Made by a program: the position numbers and the translations under genes
Notes under the pieces: model-generated
Database searches by the model: none
The model's input: only the letters and a program-made list of their open reading frames with translations
What the model was told of the DNA's origin: nothing
Origin: a virus
Direction: 5' to 3' (one strand)
Virus record (IMG/VR): IMGVR_UViG_3300044695_008209
Coordinates: 1 to 64,000 of that record
DNA length: 64,000 bases
Shown: positions 9,541-63,678 of the stretch, piece by piece
How positions within the stretch are numbered: position 1 is the stretch's first letter
Layout of the letters: each line of letters opens with the position of its first letter

Positions 9541-9546
9541 CTTATG
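9541..9546 (-). promoter_or_regulatory. CATAAG single-box promoter (2H phosphodiesterase)
   Basis: Minus strand ATCGGCATAAGGAGG, with the GGAGGTC ribosome site 12 bases further on before the ATG at 9522. Confidence 0.65.
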
Positions 9547-18746: not shown

Positions 18747-18776
18747 AGCTAAAGGGACGGGCTGCGGGCCCCGTCC
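18747..18776 (-). terminator. hairpin terminator after gene 18798-19136
   Basis: Stem GGACGGG/CCCGTCC, then CTTTAGC on the minus strand. Confidence 0.65.
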
Positions 18777-24940: not shown

Positions 24941-25213
24941 CTACTCCGGATACAGCACGAGTTCGCCAAACTGCACGTTCAGCGCACACGCCAGGTCCAT
25001 CAACGTGTTCAATCGCGGATTGCTCGTGCCGGACTCGATGGCGACCACCGTGGCGCGCGACATGCCAGATGCTTCGGCCATCTCGGCCTGCGTCCACCCT
25101 TTCGCCAGACGCCACCGCACGATGTTGCGCGCCAACGTCATCCCCAACCCGTCTCCGTCTCGATGGAGGAGAAAGTCATTGGCGCGGTTGATGTGTGTTG
25201 GGACAGAAGACAC
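24941..25213 (-). CDS. XRE/Cro-CI family transcriptional regulator, 90 aa
   Basis: Helix-turn-helix from about residue 28: LARNIVRWRLAKGWTQAEMA, then SGMSRATVVAIESGTSNP and LNTLMDLACALNV, the full five-helix XRE pattern. Start is GTG 25213 within the GAGGTGAAC-GTG leader. It is a single-gene cassette with its own terminator, so it can be expressed independently; it might act on the promoters in this region. Confidence 0.85.
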   Translation of the reverse strand: MSSVPTHINRANDFLLHRDGDGLGMTLARNIVRWRLAKGWTQAEMAEASGMSRATVVAIESGTSNPRLNTLMDLACALNVQFGELVLYPE

Positions 25214-36301: not shown

Positions 36302-36307
36302 CTTATG
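36302..36307 (-). promoter_or_regulatory. CATAAG single-box promoter (membrane peptide)
   Basis: Minus strand GAGGCATAAGAAGCACGGAGGTGAACATG. The TAA stop of the upstream gene lies inside the hexamer. Confidence 0.7.
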
Positions 36308-36620
36308 CCTCTTCGTAGTTCCCCTTTTCGTTCTTCCGGTACTTGACGGTCTCCGTCCCGCGGGAACGCAGGATGGTGTTGATGCTCCTCAGGAACGGGA
36401 GAGGCATGGTGCTGTCCTCGAGCGCCTTCGGGATGGGGACGTCGCCGAGTTCGGCGGCGCGGCCGACCAGGAGCACGAAGCGGATCTCGGTGGTGGTCTT
36501 GGGGTCGACGTACACGCCGGCGCGGACGCACTCCCAGGACACGCCGTCCTCCTCGTCGATGAGGACGTCCCCCGTCTTGGGGAAGAACTTCTTGTGACTC
36601 AGAACACCGATGGCGGGCAT
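36303..36620 (-). CDS. hypothetical protein, 105 aa
   Basis: Start ATG 36620 (MPAIGVLSHKKFF) behind GGAG. First minus-strand gene left of the divergent control region. Beta-rich; no family. Confidence 0.55.
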   Translation of the reverse strand: MPAIGVLSHKKFFPKTGDVLIDEEDGVSWECVRAGVYVDPKTTTEIRFVLLVGRAAELGDVPIPKALEDSTMPLPFLRSINTILRSRGTETVKYRKNEKGNYEEA

Positions 36621-36651: not shown

Positions 36652-36680
36652 CTTATAGCCCCTCTTGAGTGTGAGTACAA
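36652..36680 (-). promoter_or_regulatory. sigma70-like promoter TTGTAC-17-TATAAG
   Basis: Minus-strand -35 TTGTAC (36675-36680), 17-base spacer, -10 TATAAG (36652-36657). Its -35 is part of the operator repeat. Confidence 0.7.
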
Positions 36681-36701
36681 GTCTTGCGCGTGTACTCACA
36701 C
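36669..36701. promoter_or_regulatory. operator: perfect 11-bp inverted repeat between divergent promoters
   Basis: GTGTGAGTACA and TGTACTCACAC separated by 11 bases (22 bases centre to centre, two helical turns). One arm covers the minus promoter -35, the other lies in the plus promoter spacer, so one bound dimer could control both directions. Confidence 0.75.
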
Positions 36702-36712
36702 CCGGGTATGAC
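36684..36712 (+). promoter_or_regulatory. sigma70-like promoter TTGCGC-17-TATGAC
   Basis: Drives the gene at 36719. Only six bases separate the -10 from ATG, so the transcript should start at or next to the start codon (leaderless). Confidence 0.65.
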
Positions 36713-36718
36713 CCGCCC

Positions 36719-37099
36719 ATGCCAGTTCTTCACGTACCTGCTACCGGCGGCGGCCTTCAGGAGACCCACGTCTCCTCCGGGCAGTCCCTGGCAGCCGCAC
36801 TCAAGGAGCTGAACCTCCTGGGTCTGGCCGCGCAGCGCGGGATGGAACGAAGGACCTCGGCGGGGTGGGTGCGGGTCAACACCTCTCGTACCCTCCGCCC
36901 GACGGACATCATCCGGATGCGTCCGCCTGTGCAGCAGGAGCGCAAGGACCAGGGCGCCGGCGTCGCCGCCGTCCTCACGAAGCTCATGAAGGCGCTCACG
37001 CGCAAGAAGGTACCCGATGAAGTTGATCGAGCTGGTGTACGAAGGCGGCGAGGTTCTCGACCTGTGCCTCGACTCCCAGAGGGAGTACCTCCGAAGTGA
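36719..37099 (+). CDS. hypothetical protein, possible beta-grasp (ubiquitin-like) fold, 127 aa
   Basis: Start ATG 36719. Residues 1-75 (MPVLHVPATGG, SGQSLAAALKELNLLG, TSRTLRPTDIIRM) have the strand-helix-strand order and final LRPTD turn typical of ThiS/ubiquitin-like proteins; weak, by eye only. The last 27 residues overlap the next gene by 83 bases in another frame. First gene of the plus-strand module. Confidence 0.5.
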   Translation: MPVLHVPATGGGLQETHVSSGQSLAAALKELNLLGLAAQRGMERRTSAGWVRVNTSRTLRPTDIIRMRPPVQQERKDQGAGVAAVLTKLMKALTRKKVPDEVDRAGVRRRRGSRPVPRLPEGVPPK

Positions 37100-37901
37100 G
37101 CTGCGAGAGCGCTTCCTCAGCGTCGACCTTCGCGGGAAGAACGCCCTCGAGAGGAAGGTGGTGCTCCAGCGCCTCGTGGCGAAGAGCGCGGTGTTCAACA
37201 ACGTCCTGATCCGAGGGCTGTCCGGATTGGCCGAGGCATCGCAGTTCTTCACGCGATCGAGCCTGCTCCTCGACGCCCTCGGGCGGTCCGAACTCCCCGG
37301 CACCCGCGAGCTCTCCCAGTGGGCGTTCCGCACGAAGAGGGTCTTCGCCTACAGCAGCCTGATGGCCTCCGCGATCCGGGCTGCGGGCATCGGAGCCATC
37401 TCGCGCCACATCGGGCCGTGGTTCCCCACGATCGACTTCGGAGTCAGCGAGGAGGTCTCGAACAGCATCGGGGTGCTCGGGCTGGGTCGCGGCGCCCTCA
37501 TCGTGTTGGGTGACCTCAAGCGCCGGCGGGAGCAGGAGGGGCTCGAGTACGACCTGGTCACGACCGAGAGTGTCCCCGGCACCATCAAGGCCTCCTCCGC
37601 CCTCGACGTCGCAGAGCGGTGCGGCCTCCTCGTGGCGCCCTACGAGGAGATCGACAACGGCGGACCCAACGAAGCGGCGTTGCTCGCCTTGGGCACGCGG
37701 CGCGTCCTCTGCACTTCGCCGACCAGTGCCATCTACGACCTGCGCATGGACGGTCGGCTGCTGAGCGCCGCTCGCTACGAGAAGGGCAGCTACGCGGACG
37801 CCGCGCTACGCTACCAGGGCATCGAGGCGTACATGGAGGCGATCAGCTCCACGCGCCTCAACGGGTACACCATTCCGGACGAAATCCTCAGGAGACTCTG
37901 A
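37017..37901 (+). CDS. hypothetical protein, 294 aa
   Basis: Large soluble protein with mixed helices and strands. The C-terminal half has conserved-looking blocks (TIKASSALDVAERCGLLVAP, EKGSYADAALRYQGIEAYM). Not recognised; position at the head of the plus module would fit a virion structural or assembly protein. Confidence 0.6.
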   Translation: MKLIELVYEGGEVLDLCLDSQREYLRSELRERFLSVDLRGKNALERKVVLQRLVAKSAVFNNVLIRGLSGLAEASQFFTRSSLLLDALGRSELPGTRELSQWAFRTKRVFAYSSLMASAIRAAGIGAISRHIGPWFPTIDFGVSEEVSNSIGVLGLGRGALIVLGDLKRRREQEGLEYDLVTTESVPGTIKASSALDVAERCGLLVAPYEEIDNGGPNEAALLALGTRRVLCTSPTSAIYDLRMDGRLLSAARYEKGSYADAALRYQGIEAYMEAISSTRLNGYTIPDEILRRL

Positions 37902-38131
37902 TGCCCACCTCGAGCGAGGCCTACTCCGCGGTCCCGGTGAACCGGAACGCACGCCAGCGTCTCATGCGCGCAGCGCGTCTCGGTACCCGACCTGTCCGAG
38001 AGACCCCGAACATCGGAGACGCCGTGCGCGCCGTCAGTGCGGTGGCTGCGGTGGCCGATGGGTGGAGCAGCAGCTCCGCGCCGTTCCCGAGTGCGATGAA
38101 GGAAGCCTGGGCCGCACGGACGGAGAGGTAG
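37901..38131 (+). CDS. hypothetical protein, 76 aa
   Basis: ATG overlaps the TGA of the previous gene. Arg/Ala/Ser-rich and basic. Unrecognised. Confidence 0.5.
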   Translation: MPTSSEAYSAVPVNRNARQRLMRAARLGTRPVRETPNIGDAVRAVSAVAAVADGWSSSSAPFPSAMKEAWAARTER

Positions 38132-38134
38132 TCA

Positions 38135-38308
38135 GTGCCGCGACTCGTCCCGCTCAACCCGGCCGTATGCCCGCATTGCCGGAAGAAGGAGACCAAGCGC
38201 CTCGGCTTCTCCGAGGGCGACAAGGGCTCGATCTGGCAGTGCAGCGCGACGGAGTGCGGGAAGACCTTCACCGTCCCTACGCTCTCCCTCGTGAAGAAAC
38301 CCGGTTGA
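38135..38308 (+). CDS. 57-residue zinc-ribbon protein
   Basis: GTG start 3 bases after the previous TAG. Two Cys pairs: VCPHCRKKE and QCSATECGKTF, a classic four-Cys ribbon (C..C-17-C....C). May bind nucleic acid or RNA polymerase. Confidence 0.6.
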   Translation: MPRLVPLNPAVCPHCRKKETKRLGFSEGDKGSIWQCSATECGKTFTVPTLSLVKKPG

Positions 38309-38334
38309 CAGGTGTGCTCACGTGTGAGTACAAG
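38305..38334 (+). promoter_or_regulatory. sigma70-like promoter TTGACA-18-TACAAG with operator word
   Basis: TTGACA (38305-38310) and TACAAG (38329-38334). The operator word TGTGAGTACA (38323-38332) overlaps the -10, and GTGCTCAC/GTGAGTAC makes an imperfect dyad. TTGACA overlaps the stop of the zinc-ribbon gene. Confidence 0.6.
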
Positions 38335-38342
38335 GCAGATGT

Positions 38343-38807
38343 ATGGCGTGGCCACTCGACCAGTCCCCGATTCCGGAAGTGGAGGAAGACGAAGTCGTCC
38401 CTCCCTCGGATGACATCGTGCGCGCAGCGTCTACCATGCCCGCGGGAGAGGCCAAGCGCTCGAACGCGGACGCCGTCCTCGACGCAGTTGCAGGTCGTGC
38501 ACCCTTCAAGAGACGTGACCCGCGCCTCTGTCCGAAGTGCGGATCGGCGTCGAAGACCCGCGGTTCGGTGATCGGGACCCAGACGCTCACCAGGCGCTGC
38601 CAGAACCCGAAATGCAAGAACGAGTTCATGACGGGCTCCATCCGGAACAACATCGAGGTTCCGCCTCCGCCCCCCAACCCGATGCTGCTCGGCGGCCCCT
38701 ACAAGGGCGGACCGGACCGCGGCATCGGGCGCCCTCCCATCGATCCGTACGAACCCATCAACCGCCGAGTCGCCGAGGTGATTCGCAGGAGCGTAGATGA
38801 AGACTGA
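38343..38807 (+). CDS. zinc-ribbon protein, 154 aa
   Basis: Central four-Cys ribbon CPKCGSASKTRG...RRCQNPKCKNEF (about residues 63-94), related in layout to the ribbon two genes upstream. Proline-rich C-terminal linker. Only eight bases between the -10 and ATG. Likely DNA or RNA binding. Confidence 0.6.
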   Translation: MAWPLDQSPIPEVEEDEVVPPSDDIVRAASTMPAGEAKRSNADAVLDAVAGRAPFKRRDPRLCPKCGSASKTRGSVIGTQTLTRRCQNPKCKNEFMTGSIRNNIEVPPPPPNPMLLGGPYKGGPDRGIGRPPIDPYEPINRRVAEVIRRSVDED

Positions 38808-39702
38808 AGCGACCAGCTTCCCCCAGAGGGAAGACGGTGAACAGGCCTCGCGGCGACGCGCGGTACTCGAGCGCGCGAAGGCGCGTGCAGGGGCGGGCGG
38901 CGCACGTCCCGGACCGATGGAGAACGTCCCTCGGTTCGACGAAGTGCACGCCGCGGGCAAGACCATGAAGCCCGCGCCGGGACACGCCACGCCGCCGCCC
39001 GGGCTGTCCAAGGGCACCTCCGAGGCGCTCGCCGCGGTCGAGCGCGCGAACGAGGGCCGGCAGGCCCCCGCGGCGGAGCCGGAGGCCCCCGCGGAGGTGC
39101 AGGCTGAGGGGCCCCTGGACAGGGACGACATCGCCGCCCTCTTCGGCATCCCGCTCGACCGTGCCAGCGAGATCTTCAGCATCGCGTACCCGACGGCGGA
39201 CGACAACGTCTCGGTGCGTCGGCGCGTCGAGAGGCGTCTGCCCGCGCTCGACATCGGGGAGTTCCTGATGAACGGGAGTGCGACGCAGGCGGTCCCCCTG
39301 ATCCCGGTCACCGAGACCGTGAAGAAGGGCCTCACGATCACCTACCAGTCCGTGACCGAAGCCGTGGAGGCCGTGGTCGACTACCGGCTCTCCACCGAGG
39401 CCGCGAAGATCCGCAAGGAGCGGGACGGGGAGAAGTTCGTCGACGTCGAGATGTCCCAGCGGGAGTACGTGCGTCGCCAGAACGAGTACTCCCTCGCGGT
39501 CCACGTGCACGCCTACGGCGAGCAGAAGTGGCCCGCGCTCCTGACGGCGGCAGGCGCGGTCGACGAGAACTCGCTCGACTCGCGCCTGGCCAAGGTCCGG
39601 CAGATCCCCGCCCCCCTCTTCGTGATGGCCATCCAGAACCTCGCCTGGTTCCTCGACCGCGTGCAGCGGACACTGGAGGTAGCGGTTCTGGGAAATGGAT
39701 GA
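38797..39702 (+). CDS. hypothetical protein, 301 aa
   Basis: Residues 1-105 are low-complexity and disordered. The rest is helical with EYSLAVHVHAYGEQKWPALL. Four overlapped neighbours suggest virion assembly, but no family is recognised. Confidence 0.6.
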   Translation: MKTEATSFPQREDGEQASRRRAVLERAKARAGAGGARPGPMENVPRFDEVHAAGKTMKPAPGHATPPPGLSKGTSEALAAVERANEGRQAPAAEPEAPAEVQAEGPLDRDDIAALFGIPLDRASEIFSIAYPTADDNVSVRRRVERRLPALDIGEFLMNGSATQAVPLIPVTETVKKGLTITYQSVTEAVEAVVDYRLSTEAAKIRKERDGEKFVDVEMSQREYVRRQNEYSLAVHVHAYGEQKWPALLTAAGAVDENSLDSRLAKVRQIPAPLFVMAIQNLAWFLDRVQRTLEVAVLGNG

Positions 39703-40139
39703 AGACCCCGTTGGGTTGGGCGAGGGCTCAGCTGATCGCAGATCACCTGGTCAAGCCCCCGCCTTACGGGTCTCTCCTCGAGCTCATGTGCCTGGTCGTC
39801 CAACGCGAACGAGCACAACTCCGGGTCCTGGGGGCCCGCGCGCAAGCGCAGGCGGCACTGGGTGGAGAGAGCGCAGAAGCAGCCTTCAAGGACTTCGTCA
39901 ACGCGAGCAACCGAGTTGAGACCGAGGACGTCAAGAAGCGGCTGCAGGTGCAGCTCGAGAAGCTCAAGGAGATCAAGGAGATCAGGTTCAAGCCGATGGA
40001 AGTGACCGGGAAGCAGCTCAAGCTGCCGAAGGTGACCGCGGGACAGCTCCGGGAGGCCGGAGTCCTCACCGACCAGATGAGACCCGCAGGACTGCCACAA
40101 CGCCCGCAGAGGGCACGAACGCAGAGGATCAGCAGATGA
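39699..40139 (+). CDS. hypothetical protein, 146 aa
   Basis: Start ATG 39699 in an ATGA overlap. Helical with a Lys/Glu-rich coiled coil (VKKRLQVQLEKLKEIKEI). Unrecognised. Confidence 0.55.
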   Translation: MKTPLGWARAQLIADHLVKPPPYGSLLELMCLVVQRERAQLRVLGARAQAQAALGGESAEAAFKDFVNASNRVETEDVKKRLQVQLEKLKEIKEIRFKPMEVTGKQLKLPKVTAGQLREAGVLTDQMRPAGLPQRPQRARTQRISR

Positions 40140-40453
40140 CAATCGACCTCCACCTGATCGGCGCGGGCGAGTTTCGCTCCTTCCGGGAGGACATCCAGGA
40201 CACCACGTACTTCCTGCGTTTCCTGCGGGCGGACGGGGCCATGTTCGACCTCTCCGCGACGGAGGAACAGCTCGGGCGGGTCCTCGGCTTCGCTGCATCG
40301 GCGGAGCCTGCCACCGAGGACCCGCCCGCCCCGCCGCTTCGCGCTGCGTCCCCGCCCGCCCCGGACGAGGATGCCCCGCCGCCTCTGCAGCTCCGCCGCC
40401 CGGCAGTGGCTCCCGTCCTGTTCCAGACCGATGACGACGAGCACGAGCTGTGA
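40136..40453 (+). CDS. hypothetical protein, 105 aa
   Basis: Folded N-terminal 55 residues and a proline/alanine-rich tail. ATGA overlaps on both sides. Unrecognised. Confidence 0.5.
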   Translation: MTIDLHLIGAGEFRSFREDIQDTTYFLRFLRADGAMFDLSATEEQLGRVLGFAASAEPATEDPPAPPLRAASPPAPDEDAPPPLQLRRPAVAPVLFQTDDDEHEL

Positions 40454-40803
40454 GCACCGCGAGCTCCCTCGCCCTGCTGAGGATCGAGCACAAGCTCGAT
40501 CTTCTCCTCGCGTCTCTCAGCGCGAAGGACCCTGCGCTCCGTGTGCTCCTCGCAGAGGCAACAGGGCTGAGGGACTACAACGGCGACACCTGCCCGACCT
40601 GTCAGACGGAGATCAAGATCCGCTCCGACCTGACCACTGAAGAGTATGTCCGGACCTGCGGGTGCCGGCCCGAGATCCTCATCATCCCGGGAATCTCGGA
40701 TCTGAACATCCCGATCGTCGAAAAGAAGCCGACCGTCCACCCCCACGAACCAGAGGAACCCGACAATGCCGAAGTCCCAACTCCGAGCACGCGCCAAGGC
40801 TGA
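40450..40803 (+). CDS. zinc-motif hypothetical protein, 117 aa
   Basis: GTG start. N-terminal helix, then TCPTCQTEIK and TCGC, a possible small zinc site; C-terminus acidic and proline-rich. Confidence 0.5.
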   Translation: MSTASSLALLRIEHKLDLLLASLSAKDPALRVLLAEATGLRDYNGDTCPTCQTEIKIRSDLTTEEYVRTCGCRPEILIIPGISDLNIPIVEKKPTVHPHEPEEPDNAEVPTPSTRQG

Positions 40804-41107
40804 GATCTTCCAGTGCATCATCTACGACACGAAGTCGCGGAAGCGCGCCATCGTGGTCTACGCCTGCGGTGACGACGTGAAGTGGTCGACCGACATCTTC
40901 GGGCTCTTCGACCGCGACCGCGTCAACGACGCCCCGAAGTGGCTGAAGGACCAGATCTTGGACCTCCCGGCGGATGCCGAGGCGCTGGACTTCCGCGGCC
41001 GCCCGGTGACGGGGAGCCCGCCGCAGCCCCAGGACAACGCTCCCGTGCTTCGGATGCCCGAGGGCGAGTCTCTCGGCGACGAGGACTCCATCCGGCAGGG
41101 GGTCTGA
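40766..41107 (+). CDS. hypothetical protein, 113 aa
   Basis: Basic start (MPKSQLRARAKAEIF), then a beta-rich half (AIVVYACGDDVKW) and an acidic end. Overlaps the previous gene by 38 bases. Unrecognised. Confidence 0.5.
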   Translation: MPKSQLRARAKAEIFQCIIYDTKSRKRAIVVYACGDDVKWSTDIFGLFDRDRVNDAPKWLKDQILDLPADAEALDFRGRPVTGSPPQPQDNAPVLRMPEGESLGDEDSIRQGV

Positions 41108-41108
41108 C

Positions 41109-41480
41109 GTGTACAGCGTCGACAAGATCCGGCCCCAGCCAGGGTGGGCGCTCTGCCGCACCCTGAAGCCGGTCACCTCCACGCGGAGCGGGCTCGTCTT
41201 GGCCGCGGGTGACCTGGAGACGGGAAAGACCACCGAAGCCGTCGCCGAGGTCCTCCGCGTCACGCCCGCCGTCGCCGATGGCGGGCGTGAGGTCGATCCC
41301 GGTTTCCAGGCGGGAGACAAGATCCTCATCCGTGACTTCGTGAAGTTCGCCAATCCGGTGGGCGATCTCGTCGGTGCGGATCGGAACGACCGCGTCTTCC
41401 TCCTCAACAACACGGACGCGTTCGCCGTGGTGAGCGGCCCCGGGACGCTCGGCTACTACGGCGAATACCAACTCGAGTAG
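41109..41480 (+). CDS. GroES-like co-chaperonin, 123 aa
   Basis: Cpn10 caps GroEL so that client proteins fold inside; phages such as T4 (gp31) and RB49 supply their own for capsid protein folding. IRPQPGWALCRTLK at the start, a mobile-loop region SGLVLAAGDLETGKT, VDPGFQAGDKILIRDFVKFA, and DRVFLLNNTDAFAVVSG at the end match the Cpn10 barrel order. GTG start. Confidence 0.75.
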   Translation: MYSVDKIRPQPGWALCRTLKPVTSTRSGLVLAAGDLETGKTTEAVAEVLRVTPAVADGGREVDPGFQAGDKILIRDFVKFANPVGDLVGADRNDRVFLLNNTDAFAVVSGPGTLGYYGEYQLE

Positions 41481-41489
41481 GAGGGCGGC

Positions 41490-41732
41490 ATGCCTGGTAA
41501 CAAGGACGATCGCCTCCAGCTTCGGATGGAGCCGGAGCTCAAGGACTGGTTCAAGGACGATGCCGCCCCCGAAGGCGGCATGAGCCGCGTCGTCCACCAG
41601 CATGTCGCAGCCCGCTACGAGAAGAAGACCGGCAAACCTTGGAAAGGGAGCACCTCCGATGGAACGACAAAGACTGATCCCGGTGACGGAGGAGCGGCCG
41701 ATCTCGCGGAGCACGGTGCCGGGACTGATTGA
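41490..41732 (+). CDS. ribbon-helix-helix-like small protein, 80 aa
   Basis: RLQLRMEPELKDWFKDDA followed by MSRVVHQHVAARY looks like an Arc/MetJ strand-helix-helix. The tail overlaps the next gene by 74 bases. Possible small repressor; weak. Confidence 0.45.
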   Translation: MPGNKDDRLQLRMEPELKDWFKDDAAPEGGMSRVVHQHVAARYEKKTGKPWKGSTSDGTTKTDPGDGGAADLAEHGAGTD

Positions 41733-42198
41733 GGCGTTCCAGGACGCGTTCCGCCATCCCTACAAGGTCGAGCTCCTCGTGTACCGCCGAGGGGAGCCCA
41801 CGTTCACTGTGGAGCGCCTCGTGCCGGAGAGCGCTCAACCCGGGAAGGAGGGAGCGGAAGACGGGATGGAGCAGTTCCTCACCCCCTTCCAGATGATCCG
41901 TCAGCACGCGGAGCTCGAGATCCAGGAACCGTACGGCCTCCTCCTGGAAGCGATCAGCCGTGCGATCCAGTCCCTCACGACCCGCGGGTTCAAGCTCACG
42001 ATGTTCGTCTGCTCCGACAAGGCGCTGGTGCGGAAGATGGGTCGAGACCTCCGCATCGAGGACATCTGGCAGGTGCCGCTCCACGAGGACCCGGACGCCC
42101 AGGACGGCGGGGTCTTCGTCGTCGGGTCCAAGACGGGCTCCAACATCCGGGACATCGAGACGGCAGTCATGTGCCGCATGGAAGGGGGCGTGCTGTGA
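41659..42198 (+). CDS. hypothetical protein, 179 aa
   Basis: Start ATG 41659 (MERQRLIPVTEERP) behind GGAAAGGGAG. Alpha/beta with KLTMFVCSDKALVRKMG and VFVVGSKTG. Unrecognised. Confidence 0.55.
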   Translation: MERQRLIPVTEERPISRSTVPGLIEAFQDAFRHPYKVELLVYRRGEPTFTVERLVPESAQPGKEGAEDGMEQFLTPFQMIRQHAELEIQEPYGLLLEAISRAIQSLTTRGFKLTMFVCSDKALVRKMGRDLRIEDIWQVPLHEDPDAQDGGVFVVGSKTGSNIRDIETAVMCRMEGGVL

Positions 42199-42875
42199 TC
42201 GCCGAGCTGTGCACGACCAACATCATCGAGGTCATCGCCGAGGCCATCGACCCGGAGAACCAGTCCGGGAAGATCGTCCTCAAGGTCCTGGAGGAGAAGC
42301 TCTGGATCCGGATGATGCAGGACCTCCTGCGCGCCGCGAACCCGCCAGACGGGTCCTTCGGCCTGGAGGCGCACAAGGTCTTCCACCTGGGCCAGGCAGG
42401 GGTCCAGTACACTTGGATTCTGGTGGTGTGGGGCGACCCGACGGACATCCTTCCGGCACTGACGGCCATCTTGGGCCGGAAGGTCGCTGCGCCGCCGGCG
42501 TTCGCGCTGGGCCGCGCCGCCCCGACTGCTCGGACCTCGGCGACGGCCCCGGCCGCTCCGTCGCCGACGAAGACTCCCAGGCCACCGCGCGCTGCCGATG
42601 CCGATGAGGACGCCCCGCTTCCCGAGGTCCGACTGGTCCTGAAGGAAGGGACCCACAACATCAAGCGGGTCGAGGACGTCGACAACGGCGTGACCAAGAC
42701 GCGCACAACGATCAAGTTGGCCCACGTGCGGGGCGAGCGCTTCGTCAGGAACAAGAACCAGCACGAGACCATCACGCTCGACAGCGGGCGAGGGCGGTTC
42801 AAGGCTGTGGTGCAAGGCCTCACGTCAGAGGCAGGATTCTCGTATCGCCGTGAAGGCGGGGATGGAGCGCTGTGA
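42195..42875 (+). CDS. hypothetical protein, 226 aa
   Basis: GTG start in a GTGA overlap. N-terminal domain (residues 1-95), an Ala/Pro-rich linker (AAPTARTSATAPAAPS), then a basic C-terminal domain. Unrecognised. Confidence 0.55.
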   Translation: MIAELCTTNIIEVIAEAIDPENQSGKIVLKVLEEKLWIRMMQDLLRAANPPDGSFGLEAHKVFHLGQAGVQYTWILVVWGDPTDILPALTAILGRKVAAPPAFALGRAAPTARTSATAPAAPSPTKTPRPPRAADADEDAPLPEVRLVLKEGTHNIKRVEDVDNGVTKTRTTIKLAHVRGERFVRNKNQHETITLDSGRGRFKAVVQGLTSEAGFSYRREGGDGAL

Positions 42876-43645
42876 TGATCGACCAGAACGCCGCAGCCCG
42901 ACGGAGCAAGATCGGGAGCTTGAGCTCGGGAGCCGTCCCGCACTACAAGAGGGGGACGAAGGCCCCCGCACCGCTGGGTGTGGACGGGAGCGAGGCCGGG
43001 ACGGAGGCGCTGAAGAGCCTTCTCGCCCGGGAGCCGGTGGAGAAGCTCGAGAGCGCGGGCAAGTTCTCGCGCGCCAAGTGGAAGCTCCAGATCTGGATCA
43101 AGTCGGGGCGCTCCATCCACAAGCCCTTCACGTTCACCCTCTCCTTCTGGGAATCCGGGAAGCGCCTGCACGGTGGCGGCGACGAGTCGGCCTTCATCTG
43201 CCGCCGGAATCCGAACGCCCCGAAACCGGTGCGCCCTCCCTTCCTCGCGATCGGACACAGCTCGACCTTCAAGAAGGAGGCGACTGCGGACGGGTGCGAC
43301 GGCATCATCCCCGGCGAAAACGTGATCGGTGGCTTCGCGATCTGCCCGGACTGCGGGATCCGCTGGGACACCGAGCACATCGCCGACTCCCTCTTCTACG
43401 TCCTCCCCGTCGAGGTCGCGGCCACCGTCATCGCCCAGTGGTTCAGGAAGCTGGACAGCAACTGCGACCTGTACCTGAAGTACCGGGACGAGGACATCCG
43501 GGTCAAGATGATGGCGCAATCCTACGGCTTGCACGAGGCCATGCGACACAAGGGCCTGATGATCTACTCGCTGGCGCGACTCATGCGAGATCTGGCCGGA
43601 GAGGCTACCTTGGAGTCTCGCATCAAGGCGGTCCTCCTGGCGTGA
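42875..43645 (+). CDS. hypothetical protein with CPDCG zinc pair, 256 aa
   Basis: Tandem GTG-ATG at the overlap; the ATG is chosen because GGAG is 7 bases away. ICPDCGIRWDTEHIADSLFY near residue 160 plus an earlier FICRRNP may form a zinc site. Unrecognised; probably head or tail assembly given its setting. Confidence 0.55.
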   Translation: MIDQNAAARRSKIGSLSSGAVPHYKRGTKAPAPLGVDGSEAGTEALKSLLAREPVEKLESAGKFSRAKWKLQIWIKSGRSIHKPFTFTLSFWESGKRLHGGGDESAFICRRNPNAPKPVRPPFLAIGHSSTFKKEATADGCDGIIPGENVIGGFAICPDCGIRWDTEHIADSLFYVLPVEVAATVIAQWFRKLDSNCDLYLKYRDEDIRVKMMAQSYGLHEAMRHKGLMIYSLARLMRDLAGEATLESRIKAVLLA

Positions 43646-43667
43646 GGACTCCAGCACCTCCGCGGAG

Positions 43668-43673
43668 TATGCT
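43668..43673 (+). promoter_or_regulatory. TATGCT -10 for leaderless start
   Basis: TATGCT six bases before ATG 43680, with no ribosome site and no clear -35. Confidence 0.45.
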
Positions 43674-43679
43674 CTCCTC

Positions 43680-44264
43680 ATGATCGACCAACACCAGGTG
43701 CACTTCTGCTTCGCCGAGATCACCAAGGCCGCTGCGATGCCGGGTGCCCTGGCACGTGCTGGGATCGGAGCTGCCGCCGGTGCCATCGCTGACGGCGGTC
43801 CCGCGGCGATGCACGCGCTCCGGGCGCACTCGGACGTGACTCGCCTTCGCGCTGCGGGAGCCCTCTCGCCCGAGCAGGAGAAGGCGTTCACTGCCCGCCA
43901 GAAGATCCACGCGGGCTCGCACGCCCTGCGCGGGGCACTCCTCGGCGCGGCCGGCGGTGTGGCCCTCCCGCACGCTGCGACCGCGGTGAAGAAGTACTCC
44001 GGAGAGGCCGCTGCACACCTCGGGCGCGAGTTCGGCCGCGGGGCTGCCGAGCACGCAGCTCCCGCTGCCAGGGCCGCGATGCACGAGGTCGCCGGCGCCG
44101 CGCCGGCCGTGGGACGTGCCGCAGCGGCGGGCGCCGCAGGTGCCGCAGGTGCCGTGGGAGAGAACGCAGCACGCGGCGCGGTCAAGGGCGCCAAGGACGC
44201 GCTGACTCCCTCCTGGGCCGGGCGACTCAAGGAGCACGCCGCGCGCTTCATGCGGGAGGAGTAG
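43680..44264 (+). CDS. Ala/Gly-rich virion-like protein, 194 aa
   Basis: N-terminus HFCFAEITKAA, then long Ala/Gly-rich amphipathic helices (ARAGIGAAAGAIADGG, AAAAGAAGAAGAVGENAA). Composition fits an internal virion or membrane-interacting protein. A similar F..EI.K/A signature starts other small genes near 63 kb. Confidence 0.5.
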   Translation: MIDQHQVHFCFAEITKAAAMPGALARAGIGAAAGAIADGGPAAMHALRAHSDVTRLRAAGALSPEQEKAFTARQKIHAGSHALRGALLGAAGGVALPHAATAVKKYSGEAAAHLGREFGRGAAEHAAPAARAAMHEVAGAAPAVGRAAAAGAAGAAGAVGENAARGAVKGAKDALTPSWAGRLKEHAARFMREE

Positions 44265-44266
44265 TC

Positions 44267-45964
44267 GTGCCAACGGACGTTCCAGGGCTGCTCTCCTCCA
44301 TGGGTCCCCCCGGCGAGTGGTCGGGAGCCGTGGCAGGGACCGTCTCGCCCGAACAGCGGCAGGACCTCCTCCGCGCGTGGCGCTCGATGTCCGCAGAGGA
44401 GAGGAACACGATCGTCGCGAAGTGGCGTGAGCGCTTCAACGCACCAGCGGACAAGACGGCGTCGGAGGGCCGCGTCACCGCCGGCATCCTCCACGCCCTG
44501 GGCCATGCGGCCGCAGCTGAGCGGGTCGCCGTGGGCGGTCAGCGCGCGGCCGCGTACCTGCGCTCTGCGCTGCTGCACGAACCGTCGTGGCAGCCGGCTG
44601 CGCTCAAGCGTCCCACCGAGGTGATCAAGCGCGCGGGCCTGCCCGTCTCGAAGGAGCACAGGGAAGCTGCGCGCCGCGTCGACACGCACTTCCGCAGCAA
44701 CGACCCCAAGAAGTGGGACACCCTCATGGACAACGTGCAGCGCAAGTCCTTCGTGGCCGCGGTGAAGCAGGACACCCGGGCTGATCCCAAGTTCGAGCGC
44801 CACGTCGACCAGATGGGGCGGCTCCTCACCGGGAAGGCGATCGGGAAGGTCGGGCAGTACGACATCGTCCGGATGCGTGGAGGCGGCATCGGCTGCACCT
44901 GCCCCGACTGGCGCTACAAGAAGTCGGTCGCCAGTGCCGGCGAGCAGGACTGCAAGCACATTGCGGAGTGGAGAGCGACGAAGGGGGTGAAGACCGCCGC
45001 GGCCCTCTCCCCGACCACCGCCAAGAAGGTCTTCGCAGCAGGCACGGCACTCGGACTTGGGGCCCTGGCCGTAGGCCTGCACCGCAACGCGAAGAGCACC
45101 CAGTTCACGCCGGCGCAGAAGCAGATGCGCAGCCTGGCCATGCACGAGGTCGCGGGGCTCGGCATGCTGGCCAGCCCGTACGCCGCGTCCCTCGCGTCCG
45201 CCGGCGCAGAGGCCCTCTCGGGACGTCCAGGACGTGTAGGTGTCGCAGCCCGCGCTGCGCACGCGGTGCTGGAGCCGCTCTCGCACGCGATGCACGGTGG
45301 CGAGGGGCACTCCACCGTCCTCCCGCACGCGAACGAACTCCTCGGCCTCGGGCTCCTCGTGCGCCCGTCGATGCAGGAGCTGCACCACCTGAACTCCCAG
45401 ATGAAGAAGCACGGTATGGCTGCGGTAGACCGCACCGAGGTGCTCAACGACGTCGGGTTCCACACGAGGGACAACAGGTACGTCACCTTGACCGACAAGA
45501 AGTACCTGAGCGCGCTCGCGGACGGGCACATCAAGGACAACAAGGTCTTCAAGGTCCCGCACGATGTCCAGCGGCTGCACGAGCGCCTATACGATCAGGG
45601 GCTGAAGCTCCCGCACAAAGACGCCGCGATCTACCTGCGCATGGAGCACGCTGCCGCGCAGACGCCGGGAGGCAACCGCATCAAGGTGCCGGGCGAAGCA
45701 CATGCCCCTGTTCATCTCGTAGGGGACCATGGCGTTCTACGCGATCTTGGAAACCTCACGTGGTCGCCAGACAAGAAGGGACGCGGAATCCTTACGACCT
45801 TCCGCACCCCCGAGATGGGGCTAAGAACACCGTTGACCGGACAGGCGGGCCGCAGCACTCTCCTCGCCGATGTGTTCAGCCACGAGCCGAAGCTCATGGC
45901 TGAACACAAGGAGCTTCGGAACGCGGCGCGCCGGTTCCTCGGGGCGTCGGTCAAGTCCCTGTAG
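44267..45964 (+). CDS. SWIM-motif protein, 565 aa
   Basis: GTG start. Around residue 205 is CTCPDWRYKK...GEQDCKHIAEW, a C-x-C-x(n)-C-x-H zinc motif of the SWIM family, which binds DNA or protein partners. Preceded by a basic helical region and followed by an Ala-rich hydrophobic stretch (KVFAAGTALGLGALAVGL). The C-terminal third is soluble. Could be an injected or internal virion protein. Confidence 0.6.
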   Translation: MPTDVPGLLSSMGPPGEWSGAVAGTVSPEQRQDLLRAWRSMSAEERNTIVAKWRERFNAPADKTASEGRVTAGILHALGHAAAAERVAVGGQRAAAYLRSALLHEPSWQPAALKRPTEVIKRAGLPVSKEHREAARRVDTHFRSNDPKKWDTLMDNVQRKSFVAAVKQDTRADPKFERHVDQMGRLLTGKAIGKVGQYDIVRMRGGGIGCTCPDWRYKKSVASAGEQDCKHIAEWRATKGVKTAAALSPTTAKKVFAAGTALGLGALAVGLHRNAKSTQFTPAQKQMRSLAMHEVAGLGMLASPYAASLASAGAEALSGRPGRVGVAARAAHAVLEPLSHAMHGGEGHSTVLPHANELLGLGLLVRPSMQELHHLNSQMKKHGMAAVDRTEVLNDVGFHTRDNRYVTLTDKKYLSALADGHIKDNKVFKVPHDVQRLHERLYDQGLKLPHKDAAIYLRMEHAAAQTPGGNRIKVPGEAHAPVHLVGDHGVLRDLGNLTWSPDKKGRGILTTFRTPEMGLRTPLTGQAGRSTLLADVFSHEPKLMAEHKELRNAARRFLGASVKSL

Positions 45965-46469: not shown

Positions 46470-46504
46470 CCCAGATCCGACCCGTGGTTGCGCGTGCCGT
46501 AGAA

Positions 46505-46514
46505 TGTGAGTACA
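46505..46514. promoter_or_regulatory. operator word TGTGAGTACA
   Basis: Single copy in the divergent gap, 17 bases of spacing from an upstream TTGCGC. The gap (46448-46661) also holds the palindrome ACGCCCGA-G-TCGGGCGT at 46561-46577 and nothing coding. Confidence 0.55.
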
Positions 46515-46661
46515 TCAGGGCTAAGAATGTTCACCGGCTCGCTTTCGTCGACCATCGACTACGCCCGAGTCGGGCGTCTACTCCCGCACTGTGGCCTGCA
46601 GGGCTGTAGCACCGGCAGTTTCAACACATGATCCTTATCCCCTGATTCTTCGGAGGTTGTA

Positions 46662-63154: not shown

Positions 63155-63678
63155 TGAGCGACGTCGTCAAGAAGCCGGAACTCCACGACTCCCCCGCGCT
63201 CGAGTCCTACGCGAAGTGGCGCCCTCGCCTGCGCCGTGGGGCCTCGTGGGCGTTCCCCGTCGCCGCGGTCGGCAAGGCTGTCGGCGGCGAGGCGCGTACC
63301 ATCGTCCCGCTCACGATCGCTGCCGGAATGGCAGGCGCCGCGGACGCGACGCTCGAAGAGAAGCTCCGGCAGTACAAGGACCACAAGGCCCGCGCGCTCG
63401 TGCAGCGCGGATTCGAGGAGAAGCACATGAGCAGCAAGAAGGCGAGTGTCGAGGATGCCAGCCTGTTCCCCGACGCTGCGGTCACCGCTGCTGAACGAGA
63501 GGCGAGCATCACGCTCACCGGACTCACGCGCAAGCGCGACGAGCTCTCCGCGCGGGCGAACAGCCAGCTGTCGGACTACTTCCCCTCCGCCGCGAAGCAG
63601 AGCGGCAGCTACGGGCGCGGGCTCCGCGTGACCACCGGCCACGGCTCGATCGCGCAGCTGCTCGCCGGCTCGAAGTAG
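63154..63678 (+). CDS. hypothetical protein, 174 aa
   Basis: ATGA overlap. Residues 25-60 are hydrophobic with Ala/Gly; the rest is helical and charged. Unrecognised; likely part of the late module. Confidence 0.5.
   Translation: MSDVVKKPELHDSPALESYAKWRPRLRRGASWAFPVAAVGKAVGGEARTIVPLTIAAGMAGAADATLEEKLRQYKDHKARALVQRGFEEKHMSSKKASVEDASLFPDAAVTAAEREASITLTGLTRKRDELSARANSQLSDYFPSAAKQSGSYGRGLRVTTGHGSIAQLLAGSK

Follow-up and report, generated by a model that had tools for sequence, protein, structure and literature searches.

A 10-bp site recurring in the promoters of a large phage and its relatives is a candidate operator of a dispersed regulon

A nearly palindromic 10-bp sequence, TGTACTCACA (consensus approximately TGTR-N2-YACA), recurs at six loci (A–F) of a large phage and probably acts as a dispersed operator, a reading to which we assign a probability of about 0.7. 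In the proposed mechanism, a sequence-specific DNA-binding protein, most likely encoded by the phage, would bind each 10-bp site singly and block RNA polymerase, and would thereby turn down a group of operons together. Since the consensus is nearly palindromic, each site is likely to accept one dimer. Two short copies would serve a junction of divergent transcription (locus A), one for each host-type promoter; further copies would act in or over promoters B, C, D, and F, and one inside an apparent operon (E). Repression is inferred from the position of the sites alone. The phage record (G000) is 182,777 bp long, and the window, the whole stretch of DNA analysed here, is its bases 1–64,000; coordinates above 64,000 are those of the record. 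Genes of G000 were called with our own script.

The junction at locus A lies between a minus-strand block (1192–36620), in which all called genes but one are on the minus strand, and a plus-strand block (36719–45964). An earlier note on this DNA had described there an inverted repeat with an 11-base gap and two promoters with 17-bp spacers, all of which we confirmed in the sequence. The repeat, GTGTGAGTACA-N11-TGTACTCACAC (36669–36701), has arms at 36669–36679 and 36691–36701 that are perfect in G000. The minus promoter, TTGTAC-17-TATAAG (36652–36680), has TTGTAC at 36680–36675 and TATAAG at 36657–36652; the plus promoter, TTGCGC-17-TATGAC (36684–36712), has TTGCGC at 36684–36689 and TATGAC at 36707–36712. 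The predicted operator of the minus promoter, TGTACTCACA on the minus strand at 36670–36679, spans roughly −34 to −25 and overlaps the −35 hexamer, and that of the plus promoter, at 36691–36700 on the plus strand, spans roughly −28 to −19 within the 17-bp spacer. Two such adjacent sites, when occupied, would shut transcription in both directions.

Relatives were recovered through a ligase-like gene (G001, 115 kb) and through a RecA-like gene (G003, 35 kb; G004, 188 kb; G005, 69 kb), and a 294-aa plus-strand gene used as query recovered none. The junction is present in three phages only, G000, G004, and G001, and the proteins that flank the shared loci are mostly about 50–80% identical between phages. 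Both junction promoters are kept in all three with their hexamers 17 bp apart: the minus promoter reads TTGTAC-17-TATAAG in G004 and TTGTAC-17-TATAGG in G001, and the plus promoter TTGCGC-17-TAGGGC and TTGCAC-17-TACGAC, respectively. This conservation supports the view, also taken in the earlier note, that a cis-regulatory element lies between two divergent promoters. The junction promoters are weak against the Escherichia coli consensus, and neither was listed by a promoter scanner; most −10 hexamers of the site-bearing promoters lack the final T. They nevertheless stand above chance because the 10-mer recurs and because its placement inside a TTG...TA promoter is conserved in three phages. 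The −10 hexamer of the plus promoter is followed by the ATG at 36719 after 6 bases in G000, and after 6–7 nt across the phages, with no ribosome-binding site between; the mRNA from this promoter is therefore probably leaderless.

The minus promoter serves a 105-aa gene (36303–36620, minus strand, ATG at 36620) whose orthologues are 72–75% identical, and the plus block opens with a 126-aa gene (36719–37099, plus strand) whose orthologues start at the same ATG. Neither gene has a PHROG or Pfam match, and neither matches a repressor family. To the eye, the product of 36719–37099 has the appearance of a ThiS/MoaD-type beta-grasp protein, with no family match. Profile searches with the minus-strand gene and with a ribbon-helix-helix-like (RHH-like) gene discussed below matched only two already-known phages, and the minus-strand gene gave no match in bacterial genomes. 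The junction does divide a minus-strand from a plus-strand block, as had been claimed, but the label "late-type" for the plus half found no backing: its scanned genes gave no structural PHROG match, a GroES-like protein being the exception.

Comparison of the three phages suggests that locus A is two separate 10-bp sites placed back to back, one per promoter and each independent of the other, and not a single inverted-repeat operator as had been proposed. The gap between the 10-mers drifts (11 bp in G000, 13 bp in G004, and 12 bp in G001), neither relative has perfect arms (CGTACTCACA in G004; TGTAAGTACA with TGTGCTCACA in G001), and each site keeps a constant position relative to its own promoter; it is from these three facts together that we derive two sites. 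A single operator formed by both arms, with a dimer or tetramer bridging the repeat as a bistable switch between minus and plus transcription, would account for the perfect arms of G000, which lie 21 bp apart from center to center, or about two helical turns, and for a comparable pair at locus F in the opposite order. The same drift and imperfection count against it, as do the reduction of locus F to one arm in G004, the single site at D in three phages and at C in G000 and G001, and the lack of any repressor family match for the genes flanking the junction, and we consider such a switch improbable. None of 100 dinucleotide shuffles produced the exact paired-arm pattern, although perfect repeats with 11-bp arms are not rare as such, the window holding dozens of complementary stretches of at least 11 bases, mostly GC-rich hairpins. 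An exact scan of IMG/VR for GTGAGTACA-N5-20-TGTACTCAC returned 10 matches, which is about the chance number by estimate, on apparently unrelated contigs, and was set aside; a plasmid search with one repeat-rich match of that scan (L019) found nothing.

The evidence for a dispersed operator begins with the number of copies. Exact TGTACTCACA occurs eight times in the record, within matches to TTGTACTCACAC at 36669 (−), 36690 (+), 38322 (−), 46504 (−), 53647 (+), 95154 (+), 178455 (+), and 178476 (−), against about 0.1 expected as estimated from base composition. All eight copies are intergenic in G000, outside called or inspected genes. TTGTACTCACAC is found at 13 places in the 182,777-bp record when up to two mismatches are allowed, and 8 of these contain exact TGTACTCACA. 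The half-site shows no enrichment in the window once two mismatches are allowed (12 observed, 9.6 expected), so only near-exact copies count. With at most one mismatch, TGTACTCACA occurs 9 times in G001 and 14 times in G004, compared with 1 and 2 for a reversed-pattern control. Two exact copies outside the six loci, at 157492 in G004 and 8624 in G005, share flanking sequence with one another and look like coding sequence.

Comparison of flanking proteins places loci A, B, C, D, and F at orthologous positions in G000, G004, and G001, and locus E at an orthologous position in G000, G004, G005, and G003. At locus B, a plus-strand promoter, TTGACA-18-TACAAG (38305–38334), has the site in the reversed form TGTGAGTACA at 38323–38332 over its −10 hexamer, with an ATG at 38343, and this arrangement is the same in G000, G004, and G001. 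Small zinc-finger proteins (C-X2-C...C-X4-C) with weak Ogr/Delta matches are encoded on either side of this promoter, at 38135–38308 and 38343–38807. At locus C, the plus-strand promoter TTGCGC-17-TACATC (46488–46516) has TGTGAGTACA at 46505–46514 over the −10 hexamer and is kept in G004 and G001; across G000, G004, and G001 it reads TTGCGC, TTGCGT, and TTGCGC, respectively, followed by 17 bp and TACAWC, with the site position unchanged. Promoter C is followed by an untranslated plus-strand leader of about 145 nt (46517–46661), conserved in G004 and G001 with a mean column identity of 82%. Its predicted fold is multi-branched, with five pairs showing two-sided changes among the three sequences; it has no Rfam match and its single-sequence fold is no better than that of shuffles, and it is possibly a non-coding RNA.

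Locus D is again a divergent junction, between the ligase-like gene (52282–53637, minus strand) and a plus-strand gene starting at 53673. Its plus-strand promoter, TTGCTC-17-TAGTTG (53639–53667), holds TGTACTCACA at 53648–53657 in a spacer that is 17–18 bp long across the phages, and the site is single in all three, just as it is at locus C in G000 and G001. Locus F (178.5 kb) has a TTGACG promoter with the site in its spacer; its pair of sites, inverted in order relative to locus A, has both arms in G000 and G001 and one in G004. A leaderless mRNA at this locus was considered and dropped, since the supposed −10 hexamer TAGGAG may be a ribosome-binding site. Locus E (95.2 kb) lies within an apparent operon and is the sole locus with no clear promoter.

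In all three phages, the distance between the site and a TTG..TA promoter is conserved at A-minus, A-plus, B, C, D, and F. When the flanks were shuffled, such a conserved placement arose 0, 0, 0, 1, 1, and 1 times in 3000, respectively, counts that serve as a guide and not as strict P values because the offsets had been noticed beforehand; all offsets were searched in the test. Operator columns are identical in the three phages at 93%, compared with 29% in the 20 bp on either side, the first figure being inflated by the choice of sites by near-match. Within the promoters, the sites span approximately −34 to −9; their orientation is forward at A-minus, A-plus, and D but reversed at B, C, and F, while at E it flips in G005. 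This variable position and the use of both orientations favor a steric repressor over an element that is read by a sigma factor or an activator. If TGTACTCACA were instead a core promoter element or an activator site that recruits polymerase, by way, for example, of a sigma factor of the phage or of a zinc-finger activator of the Ogr/Delta kind, its presence within promoters everywhere except at E would be explained, and the phage does have a sigma-like gene as well as small zinc-ribbon proteins that score weakly against Ogr_Delta. A sigma factor or activator needs a fixed geometry, however, whereas the offset from the −10 hexamer and the orientation differ between loci, and a separate motif, CATAAG, is a better candidate for the sigma factor; we therefore regard recruitment as very improbable.

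The loci follow one another as A-B-C-D-E-F in G000 (36.7, 38.3, 46.5, 53.6, 95.2, and 178.5 kb) and as F-A-B-C-D-E in G004 (82, 127, 129, 136, 143, and 184 kb) with similar spacings. Because the circular order is the same and the spacings agree, both records look like near-complete, circularly permuted genomes. At the nucleotide level, the junction region had no match among named phages. Matches to the DNA polymerase came from 2,469 records, none of which exceeded 80% query coverage or reached 60% identity. A tyrosine integrase was searched for in the phage and not found.

A second, distinct element, GGNCATAAG, contains the motif CATAAG, which occurs 27 times in the window, between 8247 and 54748, always on the minus strand; 24 copies are intergenic and 3 are at gene edges, and GAGGTGAAC and an ATG often follow. 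Examples, all on the minus strand, are at 9543, 20682, 32094, 33378, 36304, and 46466, the copy at 36304 serving the gene directly behind the minus-strand gene of the junction. Copies of CATAAG with GAGGT behind them number 17 in G000, 13 in G004, and 7 in G001, on one strand only in each, against 0, 0, and 1 for the reversed control. These elements are likely to represent a phage-specific promoter class, and their pattern resembles that of FliA/WhiG-type promoters, the strict upstream AA being present at a few copies only. The minus strand of the window also has 12 copies of TTTAGC (for example at 18750, 20704, 24896, 29746, and 30567), always intergenic and mostly right after a GC-rich hairpin; they look like terminator tails that precede the next CATAAG gene cassette.

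A sigma-like protein is encoded at 63495–64568 of the record, across the end of the window (L075:508–1581), and matches PHROG 351 (sigma factor, E = 1.6e-7; Sigma70_r3, E = 1.2e-4), with 73% identity in G004 and 68% in G005. A first Sigma70_r2 search of the phage gave no match, and the sigma assignment thus rests on the C-terminal half. We hypothesize that this factor reads the CATAAG promoters. The site-bearing promoters would perhaps then be early ones, shut when the phage turns to its CATAAG promoters and to the sigma-like factor that would read them. The earlier note had seen the junction as the main transcriptional switch; given the same site at five other loci, the 27 minus-strand CATAAG elements, and the sigma-like factor, it is unlikely to be a sole master switch and appears instead to be one node of the regulon.

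The protein most open to consideration as binder is an RHH-like protein of 80 aa (41490–41732, plus strand), for which a 10-bp site would be a suitable size for one dimer. Its RLQLRM strand is invariant in G000, G004, and G001, its orthologues are 64–67% identical among these phages, and it was not found in the short fragments G003 and G005. The assignment follows a sequence pattern, with no Pfam RHH_1 match and no solved relative in the PDB, and the AlphaFold model has low confidence (pLDDT 50), with helices at 15–25 and 33–47. We name this protein as the binder tentatively. A literature search for phage early-promoter operators with a ribbon-helix-helix repressor found no match to the system. 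A ParB/KorB-like protein (L016:6876–7772, about 176.9–177.8 kb of the record; PHROG ParB, E = 4e-21; Pfam ParB_N, E = 5e-8; KorB weak), encoded in the operon behind site F and conserved in G004 and G001, is an unlikely though reasonable second candidate. The earlier note had suggested XRE and RHH-like binders, and only the latter suggestion retains some weight: the XRE protein (24941–25141, minus strand) has an HTH_3 match in G000 and G001 and none in G004, which carries the sites and looks near complete, and its role as binder is highly unlikely. A MerR/excisionase-like protein at 138.6 kb was also rejected, its best PHROG score being for a terminase small subunit.

The binder might also be a host global regulator that the phage exploits. 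Against this, the sites are as scattered and as tied to promoters as those of a phage regulon would be, and a literature search for the 9-mer turned up no regulator among the papers listed; we consider a host protein doubtful, and the remaining weight falls on some other phage protein. The fullest version of the phage regulon, in which host-type promoters, often leaderless, would be silenced by an RHH-like dimer at 10-bp sites in any orientation, the CATAAG promoters would be read by the sigma-like factor, and the junction would take part in the handover, is rather unlikely to be right in every part.

The proposed regulon shares features with several known systems. The repressor of the Cluster A mycobacteriophage L5 binds 20–30 asymmetric 13-mers, of which the great majority face one way relative to transcription; these sites are mostly away from promoters, and their reversal abolishes repression (PMC9283540, PMC6550527). 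Like these operators and stoperators, the sites described here are many copies of one short intergenic sequence, some of them in promoters. Unlike them, they number about eight exact copies of 10 bp, are found in both orientations, and lie at promoters except at locus E. Since the sites differ in size, in number, in orientation, and in their location at promoters, the system is not classed with the L5 type. KorB and KorA of IncP plasmids are global repressors of several promoters (PMC11790492, PMC4889941). The phage system resembles theirs as a dispersed repressor regulon, and the phage also encodes a ParB/KorB-like protein, KorB being of the ParB family. The IncP operators, TTTAGC-N-GCTAAA and the TTTAGCTAAA palindrome, are both absent from the window, and the operator sequence is unrelated. 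In the lambda-type cI/cro switch, divergent promoters have three tandem operators between them. Predicted operators likewise lie between divergent promoters at the junction, but they are single 10-bp sites that recur at other loci, and it is because no recognizable repressor gene flanks the junction that we do not consider it a lambda-type switch.

What had been an isolated palindrome becomes, in this analysis, a defined and testable regulon in large phages with no nucleotide match in the collection searched. Its sites and promoters are located exactly, and a few candidate repressors are named. The analysis also distinguishes this regulon from a second class of promoters, one that may depend on the sigma-like factor encoded by the phage.
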